A stretch of 36,719 bases of DNA from Crocinitomicaceae bacterium (GTDB lineage: Bacteria; Bacteroidota; Bacteroidia; Flavobacteriales_D; Crocinitomicaceae): positions 1-36,719 of the forward strand of contig JALRKF010000031.1 of NCBI GenBank assembly GCA_023254905.1, in the 5' to 3' direction. The position numbers and the translations under genes were made by a program. Positions 17,421 to 30,998 of the stretch are shown here, piece by piece. Positions within the stretch are counted from its first letter, which is position 1. Every line of letters begins with the position of its first letter. The notes beneath the pieces were generated by a model that had not been told where the DNA came from, did no database searches, and saw only the letters and a list, made by a program, of their open reading frames with translations.

Positions 17421-20066
17421 TTATCTGATTATATTGACATGTCCTTGAAACTGAACTTTTTCGTCGTTGAGTATATTCCTAGTTCTTATCGTCCAGGTAT
17501 AAGTCCCATCCGGTAGAAGTTGTCCATTATAGATACCATCCCAAGGTACATCAATATCAAGTGACTCCCAAATGATTTCACCCCAACGGTTGTATATGGT
17601 AAGCTCCCAGTCGTACTGATCTACTCCCTCCATGTATACTCTCCAATTCTGATTAAACTCATCACCATCGGGTGTAAATGTATTCGGCGCATAAATAATT
17701 ATTTCTGGCTGAACCACCAACTCATGATACATAGTATCCGTACATCCGAGTTCAGAAGTTGTGATCAAAATAATATCATAGGAATCAATAACACCATCGG
17801 GAAACTCTACTTGCACATCCTCTTGAGTTGAGGAGGATGGATAACCACCATCAAAATACCATTCATAAGTACTTCCATTAAATGAATAATTACTGAAGTT
17901 AACCGTGGTATTAAAAGCTGTCACAGGATTTGGAGCATAACCAAAATTTGCGACTGGTTTCGGTTGCACGTACAATGCATTATCTATTCTAATTGAATCA
18001 ACACAACCTTCAAATGAAGTTACCATCATATAAATCTCATAGTAGCCTTGCCAGAATTCTGGAGATACTATTGTATCTTGATTTAAGTATTGATGAATTC
18101 CATCAACTTCCCAGTAAATATATTCACTCATCGCAGGATCCGTAGCATTCACAATTGTAAAAATAGCTGGCTCACATTGGATAGGATTCAATACCTGATA
18201 TTCTGGAATTGGTAGCGGCGCTACACGGATATTAGAAGTTAAAATAAGTGGTGTCGATTCACATCCATCCGTAATCGTAACCGTATAATCCTGAGTTATC
18301 GGAGGACTTACTGTAATTGAGTGTGATCCCACACCATTGTGTGTCTCACCTGATGACCAAATGAATTCATAAGGTTGGCCAATGCCACCCGATGCAATGG
18401 CTGAAATGGTTGTTCCGTAACCAGGGCATATTGTATCCCAAGGAGAAATTACACCTGATAATGGAGGCCTCACTGAGACTTCAATTGCTGCTGGCTGCGA
18501 TATACAGCCGTTTTGATTGGTAGCGAAAACAGTATATACTGTTTGTGTCAATGGACTAACATCTTGGTAGGCTCCTGTATTCGCTGTATGGTCCCAAGTG
18601 TAAAAATAAGACGTGCCTCCTGTTGCTGAAGCAAACATGTATGCCGTACCATTTTCACAAATCAAGGTGTCATTGCTTACATACACTTGAACTGGAGAAG
18701 GATCAAAAACATCAACATCTACGCACTTTTGACATCCTGTCACAGTTCTGCCGCAAACGGTGTAAGTACCCGCACTAAAAACAACAGCAAAGGAATCAAC
18801 TACCCAAGTGGCTCCGCCATCAAAACTATATTCTATTGCATCTAAACTTGTAATGTGAATTTCACCATCTGCGAATCCTTCACAAGTAGGATCAATTACT
18901 GAAGCAATTACATCGAGCTCAGATACATCCACAAGCATTGTATCATACCTATTACCACAAATGGCATTTGTTTCTCTCAGTATAAACTCATAAAGTCCTG
19001 TTTGATTTACAGAAACCTGAGCGTTGAGCGTGGTAAAGTTTGGAGTGAAGTTAACGGTGGGTGTGGGCGAAACTGATGACGCATCGAAGGTCCATAACCC
19101 GCTATTGTTCAGTGGGTCATCTAAAGTTCCATTTAATTGAATTAGGTCTCCCAAACATATCGACTGATCCGGACCAGCATCTGGCTGCTGTGGGTTTTGA
19201 ACGAAAATTGTGAACGTATCTACAGCAGCTAAAACGCCATTATCAAAGATTTCTACGTGATATTCTGTTGTTACTAATGGTGTTACTTGAACATTTACAC
19301 CACTAGTTGTGTTCGATACTCCGGTGGTAACTAACCAATTAAATGTAGGATTAGCTATCACCGCGGGTGCTGTAATAGTAACGTCAGCCGTTTCTCCGAG
19401 GCATATTGTTTGATCTGGTGTATCCGGAGTGCAAGAGACTACGGCACTATTTGGATTGTTATTCCCGGGAATATCATTACCAAAAGTTAAAGGAACATTT
19501 CCAGATCCTGAACTAAAATTGGAAAAACATAAAACATATTGTTCACCTGCAACTACAGGTATAGCATATTCAAAGTTTGATTGGTTTGCTCCTGGAGGAA
19601 GAGAACCCTGCGCATACATTCCAGTAAATCCAGCGGATGAACCATTCCAATTACAAGCAGCTGGGGGAAGCGTATTATTCTGTATGTCTGTACAAGCATT
19701 GCCAGCAGCACCATCGTAATAAGGCCATAAAGCCCAATCGTAATATCCTGAACTACCTGAAGATCCTATCGTGAACTCCAGAACCCCAGATGAACCAACA
19801 TTAATAACAAACCAATTTGGATTGAGTTCTCCTGAAAGCAAACAGCCGGAGTTCCCTGCTGGACCTGGATTAATACTCGGATTTGAAGTGGTACTTCCCG
19901 TTGGAATGTCATTCACGGCTCCGGGTCCTATACTTAAGGAAAAAAGTGTACCATTATCTGAGCACACATATTCCGCGTCTTGACAATCTGGAGCTTGATT
20001 TGGGGCTATCTGAGCAAATAAATTCGCTAAAAAAAAGATTGAAAAAAGTCCTAGCAAATACTTCAT
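17421..20066 (-). CDS. Large secreted protein with PKD-like repeats and gliding-motility-associated C-terminal (CHU_C, type B sorting) domain
   Basis: Signal peptide MKYLLGLFSIFFLANLFAQ; C-terminus IIIYAPNTFTPDGDEFNQNWRV...ELTIYNRWGEIIWES...PWDGIYNGQLLPDGTYTWTI. Confidence 0.88.
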   Translation of the reverse strand: MKYLLGLFSIFFLANLFAQIAPNQAPDCQDAEYVCSDNGTLFSLSIGPGAVNDIPTGSTTSNPSINPGPAGNSGCLLSGELNPNWFVINVGSSGVLEFTIGSSGSSGYYDWALWPYYDGAAGNACTDIQNNTLPPAACNWNGSSAGFTGMYAQGSLPPGANQSNFEYAIPVVAGEQYVLCFSNFSSGSGNVPLTFGNDIPGNNNPNSAVVSCTPDTPDQTICLGETADVTITAPAVIANPTFNWLVTTGVSNTTSGVNVQVTPLVTTEYHVEIFDNGVLAAVDTFTIFVQNPQQPDAGPDQSICLGDLIQLNGTLDDPLNNSGLWTFDASSVSPTPTVNFTPNFTTLNAQVSVNQTGLYEFILRETNAICGNRYDTMLVDVSELDVIASVIDPTCEGFADGEIHITSLDAIEYSFDGGATWVVDSFAVVFSAGTYTVCGRTVTGCQKCVDVDVFDPSPVQVYVSNDTLICENGTAYMFASATGGTSYFYTWDHTANTGAYQDVSPLTQTVYTVFATNQNGCISQPAAIEVSVRPPLSGVISPWDTICPGYGTTISAIASGGIGQPYEFIWSSGETHNGVGSHSITVSPPITQDYTVTITDGCESTPLILTSNIRVAPLPIPEYQVLNPIQCEPAIFTIVNATDPAMSEYIYWEVDGIHQYLNQDTIVSPEFWQGYYEIYMMVTSFEGCVDSIRIDNALYVQPKPVANFGYAPNPVTAFNTTVNFSNYSFNGSTYEWYFDGGYPSSSTQEDVQVEFPDGVIDSYDIILITTSELGCTDTMYHELVVQPEIIIYAPNTFTPDGDEFNQNWRVYMEGVDQYDWELTIYNRWGEIIWESLDIDVPWDGIYNGQLLPDGTYTWTIRTRNILNDEKVQFQGHVNIIR

Positions 20067-25726: not shown

Positions 25727-25767
25727 AAAAAGGGGGTTATGAATTAAGGCTTACTCCTTCGATAACC
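25727..25767 (-). promoter_or_regulatory. Hairpin followed by T5 in the rpsK-rpsD gap; candidate leader/attenuator
   Basis: Minus strand GGTTAT CGAAGGAGTAAGCCTTAATTC ATAACC CCC TTTTT, with inner AAGG/CCTT pairing. Confidence 0.4.
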
Positions 25768-30462: not shown

Positions 30463-30861
30463 TTAATGTACGTAAGCGAGAACCTCTCCTCCTACGTTTT
30501 CTTTTCTTGCTTGTTTGTCTGTGATAACACCTCTCGATGTAGATACAATTGCGATTCCCAAACCATTAATAACTCTTGGCATATCTTTCGCTCCTGTATA
30601 TTGTCGAAGACCTGGTGTTGATACACGCTGAATTTTTGTAATCGCCGGAACCTTTGTTGACGGATTGTATTTCAATGCTATTTTGATGATACCTTGCTTG
30701 TTATCATCTTCAAATTTGTAATCAAGAATATAACCCTGATCGAAAAGGATTTGCGTCATTGCACGTTTCACATTCGAACCAGGAATCTCAACTACTCTTT
30801 TTCCTGCAGAACTTGCGTTACGAATTCGCGTCAGATAATCTGCTATTGGATCTGTATTCAT
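30463..30861 (-). CDS. rpsH: 30S ribosomal protein S8 (ATG 30861; the longer track ORF includes promoter DNA)
   Basis: [65 protein letters not shown]. Confidence 0.97.
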
Positions 30862-30881
30862 GTTGTTTAATTTTCGGTAAC

Positions 30882-30901
30882 GGTTTTCAATCGCTTGAAC
30901 C
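30882..30901 (-). promoter_or_regulatory. GNRA-type hairpin in the rpsH 5' leader
   Basis: Minus strand GGTTCAA GCGA TTGAAAACC, 21 nt upstream of the rpsH ATG. Confidence 0.4.
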
Positions 30902-30929
30902 TGAAACCAGTTTATAATTTTTAGGGACG

Positions 30930-30960
30930 CAAAGATATAAAGACTAAAGATACTTGACAA
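30930..30960 (-). promoter_or_regulatory. Internal promoter before rpsH: TTG-N20-TATCTTTG
   Basis: Minus strand TTG TCAAGTATCTTTAGTCTTTA TATCTTTG in the 137-bp rpsN-rpsH gap. Confidence 0.7.
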
Positions 30961-30998
30961 GAATGACAGCCATCTTTACCTTTTGACTTTGAAAAACC

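Follow-up and report, generated by a model that had tools for sequence, protein, structure and literature searches.

In Escherichia coli, ribosomal protein S8 is the autorepressor of the spc operon and acts by binding an mRNA element that copies its site on helix 21 (PMC10931766, PMC4176348), with the operator located at the start of rplE (rplX-rplE; PMC10931766). On the rRNA, the S8 site comprises A595-(A596-U644), (G597-C643)-641 and the invariant A642, which contacts the protein (PMC4176348). Small covarying hairpins preceding ribosomal protein genes are known from Bacteroidota, namely the S4-Flavobacteria leader (RF03141) and other leaders of Eckert and Weinberg 2020; Table 1 of that study contains no S8 or rpsH leader (PMC7247131). 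Our literature search, which covered main texts, found no rpsH leader; an earlier listing without a name may exist in supplementary tables of structured 5′ regions, such as Table S7 for Flavobacterium psychrophilum. Here we describe a hairpin that, like these leaders, precedes a Bacteroidota ribosomal protein gene and that, like the E. coli spc operator, is proposed to mimic the helix 21 site of S8.

The DNA analysed (the window: the whole 36,719-nucleotide stretch from the metagenome-assembled genome of a Crocinitomicaceae bacterium) carries the S10-spc-alpha ribosomal protein genes, rplD through rpoA, on its minus strand, and the S8 that it encodes is nearest to that of Crocinitomicaceae-type Flavobacteriales (identity up to 86%). 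CP034120.1, a record titled Glaciecola amylolytica (a gamma-proteobacterium) and possibly mislabelled, encodes an S8 of flavobacterial type that shares 76% identity with the S8 of the window. The gap between rpsN and rpsH and the elements around it are as follows:

30862-30998, minus strand: rpsN-rpsH gap, 137 nt from the rpsN stop to the rpsH ATG
30463-30861, minus strand: rpsH (S8), true start ATG at 30861
30869-30916, minus strand: conserved leader RNA (model R1), proposed S8 operator; sole R1 match in the window, E 4e-16
30875-30909, minus strand: helix with asymmetric internal loop; lower part 30909-30903 with 30881-30875, upper part 30901-30895 with 30890-30886 and 30883-30882
25735-25767, minus strand: S4-Flavobacteria ribosomal leader (RF03141) just before rpsD, E 4e-7; positive control for the window

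The initial annotation gave the gap the same length of 137 nt and took the 165-aa open reading frame that begins at TTG 30960 for a spurious start, a view that the relatives bear out: their S8 proteins align from the same, conserved ATG, and the frame upstream of it is open in just 4 of 48 gaps of at least 100 nt. Read from ATG 30861, the N-terminus of the protein is collinear with that of E. coli S8, and the VSTS loop of E. coli S8, which contacts A642, is retained. There is next to no chance that S8 is truly 165 aa long with a 33-residue N-terminal extension; the frame is indeed open in the window, but, besides bypassing the conserved start, the extension would overlie the conserved RNA structure. 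Judged by these alignments, the 165-aa reading is mechanical.

The leader is 48 nt long (30916-30869) and ends 7 nt before the rpsH ATG. Covariance model R1, built from the 41 distinct leaders aligned in A1, gave three matches in a search of the whole genome; the leader was the best of these, and the next had an E-value of 0.1. In A1, 8 of the 14 pairs of the helix have changed on both sides (independent MAFFT alignment), with a covariation of 0.242 as compared to 0.131 ± 0.009 in shuffles and a maximum of 0.10 when the partners are slid. The larger alignment A4 (71 rows, 70 distinct sequences for covariation) has both-side changes at 9 of 14 pairs and a covariation of 0.318, as compared to 0.178 ± 0.009 in shuffles and no more than 0.12 for slid partners; because the A4 rows were fitted to the structure, A1 gives the cleaner measure. 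One row of A4 is false (L163:2198, E 0.54) and does not materially change the counts. Folded as a single sequence, the leader does not stand out (z 0.10 and -0.90), and we therefore dropped single-sequence folding as support; as far as the alignments go, the support for the hairpin is conservation and covariation, not fold energy. A search of Rfam 15 (E up to 1) gave no match at the leader or in 14 relative loci. The initial annotation described a GNRA-loop hairpin, GGTTCAA-GCGA-TTGAAAACC. While this hairpin is present, the signal is carried by the lower helix and the internal loop, both of which had been overlooked, and the GNRA tetraloop is ruled out as the key feature, the hairpin loop being variable in length and sequence among the aligned leaders.

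In Crocinitomicaceae, Flavobacteriaceae and Sphingobacteriaceae, the R1-type leader immediately precedes rpsH; the Sphingobacteriaceae leaders (Arcticibacter, Daejeonella), found in the same place, are mostly outside the model-building set, and all the members of the Sphingobacteriaceae-type family f52 that we read carry the same leader. Whole-genome R1 searches were positive in 28 of the 32 listed members of the genus, and R1 also matched a few genomes from elsewhere in the family, as well as family f65, apparently Flavobacteriaceae. As is typical of ribosomal protein leaders, the covarying structure is consistently found just upstream of the gene, and rpsH follows directly at each of the 43 loci that were fetched with a solid R1 match. 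We treated as chance three weak R1 matches that are not followed by rpsH (L165-L167), and likewise a second, weak match in genome G031. The leader recurs in front of rpsH both in relatives that have the promoter considered below and in others that lack it; many have the leader alone, and it does not depend on the promoter. Our survey of the class covered about 90 members from about 60 families; many Bacteroidia, including some members of the genus, have an rpsN-rpsH gap of about 19 nt and no leader, and the leader is thus dispensable.

The internal loop of the leader contains the nucleotides that resemble the S8 site (16S numbering):

30899-30902, minus strand: 5′ half of the S8 core, A595 (30902), G596, G597 and U598 (30899), each invariant in 71/71 leaders
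30882-30886, minus strand: 3′ half of the S8 core, A640 (30886), A641, A642 (30884), C643 and C644 (30882), in the aligned leaders

Over the 71 leaders the core reads [C/A/U]AGGU...A[A/U]ACC: A640, A642 and C643 are present in all 71, C644 in 70, and position 641 has A 69 times and U twice. For comparison we used the 16S genes of order relatives, the window's own 16S amounting to 280 nt at the window end with no match elsewhere in the genome. These genes read UAAGU...GA[U/A]ACUG over the core, i.e. A595 A596 G597 U598 and A640 [U/A]641 A642 C643 U644, with A641 in two of them. Common to leader and helix 21 are A595, G597, U598, A640, [A/U]641, A642 and C643 together with their pairing: A642 is invariant and C643 pairs with G597 in 71/71 leaders, A595 lies beside the 596-644 pair, 598 pairs with 640, and the 3′ strand has two extra nucleotides (641 and 642). 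The two differ at 596-644, which is G-C in the leader and A-U in the 16S of the order. While this swap preserves the pair, it means that the triple with A595 is altered; Thermus thermophilus also varies at this position (PMC4176348). The flanking helices of the leader are unrelated in sequence to those of helix 21, and R1 run against 16S gave no score, the shared part being the core only. Dinucleotide shuffles of the window gap matched the S8-core descriptor as well as the leader in 2 of 1500 cases. A descriptor match at 18109 (minus strand), within an 881-aa coding frame, was taken as chance; sought elsewhere in the spc region of leaderless relatives, the core gave scattered matches, none consistent. 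The proposal of the initial annotation that the leader is a candidate S8 target is strengthened by the match of its invariant nucleotides to the helix 21 core and by the covarying helices.

Going by the sequence comparisons, we consider it likely that the leader is an autoregulatory operator, at which S8 binds the 16S-like core and represses rpsH and the downstream genes. What speaks against an operator is, besides the altered 596-644 triple, the sharing of the core alone with 16S and the existence of leaderless relatives, its location: the site is found directly before rpsH, not at the start of rplE as in E. coli. The strand order seems to differ as well, since the E. coli operator triple A+80-(A+81-U+11) (PMC4176348) puts the AA side on the 3′ strand, whereas in the leader, as in rRNA, it is on the 5′ strand. 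Leader ligands have often been guessed from position only, and the element could be a regulatory RNA for another ligand (L6, L18, S5, S14 or a small molecule) with an incidental likeness to the S8 core. We regard this as unlikely, given that rpsH is the first gene downstream in every solid match fetched, that the invariance coincides with the S8 core, down to the variable 641, and that a second rpsH leader, that of family f23, has the same core. It is more improbable still that the hairpin is passive, i.e. that without any protein ligand it sets the rate of translation or is a site, between rpsN and rpsH, that governs RNA processing or stability: while the AUG is nearby, and initiation in Flavobacterium johnsoniae is tuned by structure close to the start (PMC6847099), a passive stem would have no need of the seven letters, in the internal loop or closing the loop, that are invariant across three families.

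Other covarying hairpins occupy the same spot before rpsH:

Gap before rpsH, family f23 (L182, L195, L224, L238, L239, L240): f23 leader with S8-like core
Gap before rpsH (L204, L213, L216, L217, L226, L235, L243, L254): third rpsH motif

The f23 hairpin is different from the R1 type and has a long covarying lower stem and the core [U/A]AAGA / U[U/A]ACU, which in 16S numbering corresponds to A595 A596 G597 / [U/A]641 A642 C643 U644; the model built for it matches f23 at the rpsH position and gives one borderline match besides. The third covarying motif, UAUAAUU-stem-UAACAUAUAAA, is found in seven families (f18, f19, f32, f39, f49, f53 and f56) and is present in 37 of 296 genomes. None of the rpsH leaders matched Rfam 15 in the members scanned. 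Two members tested against the strict S8-core descriptor (L204 and L213) gave no match, and we thus do not claim the third motif as an S8 site. Families f44 and f68 (L209, L227, L249) have another small hairpin, AUAUUGUC..GAUNAAU, before rpsH. It is conceivable, at somewhat less than even odds, that Bacteroidota control S8 at rpsH by several separate leaders (R1 type, f23 type and the third motif), S8 control having arisen repeatedly or having diverged beyond recognition around a fixed core.

The gap also contains a putative promoter, which can be compared with those of the rRNA genes:

30930-30960, minus strand: promoter, -33 TTG (30960-30958), N20, -7 box TATCTTTG (30937-30930)
598-569 and 482-453, minus strand: two TTG-N19-TAnnTTTG promoters in tandem, ahead of the 16S gene (start at 280)
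30925, minus strand: predicted transcription start, from the F. psychrophilum box position (PMC9723704)
30930-30991, minus strand: inverted repeat overlapping the promoter, MFE -14.8, z -3.69

The two boxes are present as described in the initial annotation and agree with the Bacteroidota sigma-A promoter (-7 TAnnTTTG, -33 TTG, spacing 19-21). Extended by one nucleotide, the motif TTG-N20-TATCTTTGC spans 30960-30929 on the minus strand; the 2.27-Mb assembly as a whole contains five instances of TTG-N19-21-TATCTTTGC as compared to one of the reversed control pattern, one of the five being the rpsH-gap site and two being copies of the 16S promoter (598-568 in the window and a second contig). The 16S promoter at 598-569 and the rpsH-gap site have the same -7 box. 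Nine matches to the looser TTG-N18-22-TAnnTTTG are found in the window, and the three notable ones (sense, before a gene) are the two rRNA promoters and the rpsH-gap site. While the site shares both boxes and their spacing with Bacteroidota primary sigma promoters, it differs from them in its place within the spc operon and in its overlap with an inverted repeat. In F. psychrophilum the TAnnTTTG box occupies -12 to -5 (PMC9723704), and we therefore predict a start at 30925, the position given in the initial annotation, which would result in a 64-nt 5′ UTR.

We surveyed 106 distinct rpsN-rpsH gaps of at least 40 nt, the rows being phylogenetically non-independent. TAnnTTTG was found in sense orientation in 32 of the 53 gaps of at least 85 nt, as compared to 5 in antisense and 4.5 (maximum 9) in shuffles; the corresponding figures for TAnnTTTGC are 29, 2 and 0.9. 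Hymenobacter, family f27, Sphingobacteriaceae-type and Flavobacteriaceae-type genomes and the window's own genus all contribute promoter-bearing long gaps. Conservation in relatives, which the initial annotation had named as a check on its promoter, is evident in long gaps and nearly missing from those of 40-84 nt (sense TAnnTTTG in 1/53), and it is patchier than that of the leader. An inactive promoter-like sequence, in a long gap that is a remnant or a repeat insertion, would fit with the spacer being an inverted repeat and with the loss of the -33 TTG in most promoter-bearing relatives. This reading, which concerns the promoter only, we hold to be rather unlikely in view of the excess of sense over antisense boxes in long gaps, the rarity of the full motif in the genome and its presence in the rRNA promoter.

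The inverted repeat at 30930-30991 is predicted to form a hairpin in any read-through transcript. Such structure is common in the spacers between rpsN and the leader, with z at or below -3 in 26 of 34 long spacers, that of the window included, as compared to 1.6% of random windows; the rRNA promoters gave no comparably strong hairpin when folded. In Hymenobacter (L060) and in one f52 genome (L248) the spacer hairpin is followed by a U-run and is terminator-like, and in L216, L238 and L254 the two arms of the spacer repeat resemble mirror-image -7 boxes. In the window no U-run terminator follows the hairpin, and read-through from rpsN into rpsH thus remains likely. The splitting of the operon proposed in the initial annotation is therefore supported only in part: a strong hairpin overlaps the promoter, but the window has no U-run terminator; the spacer hairpins point to a divided operon without proving it.

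We propose that free S8 would grip the leader hairpin via the same internal-loop core as on 16S helix 21 and would thereby prevent 30S loading at rpsH. The helix ends (30875) 13 nt from the rpsH AUG (30861), a distance that lies inside the 30S footprint, and bound S8 would therefore block initiation. Synthesis of L6, L18, S5, L30, L15, SecY and IF1 would drop together with that of S8, via coupling or mRNA decay. Occlusion is proposed over Shine-Dalgarno sequestration because Bacteroidota do not use Shine-Dalgarno sequences (PMC6847099). In the window genome and some relatives, the extra promoter would start a transcript with its 5′ end about 16 nt before the operator and would let the S8-to-IF1 half be transcribed separately from L14-S14.

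The leader provides a sequence-level operator candidate, with named nucleotides to mutate, in Bacteroidota, a phylum without known control of the spc operon, and suggests that an S8 operator can sit before rpsH instead of rplE. It is also linked to a putative promoter, which in some lineages would uncouple the S8-IF1 half of the operon from the L14-S14 half.
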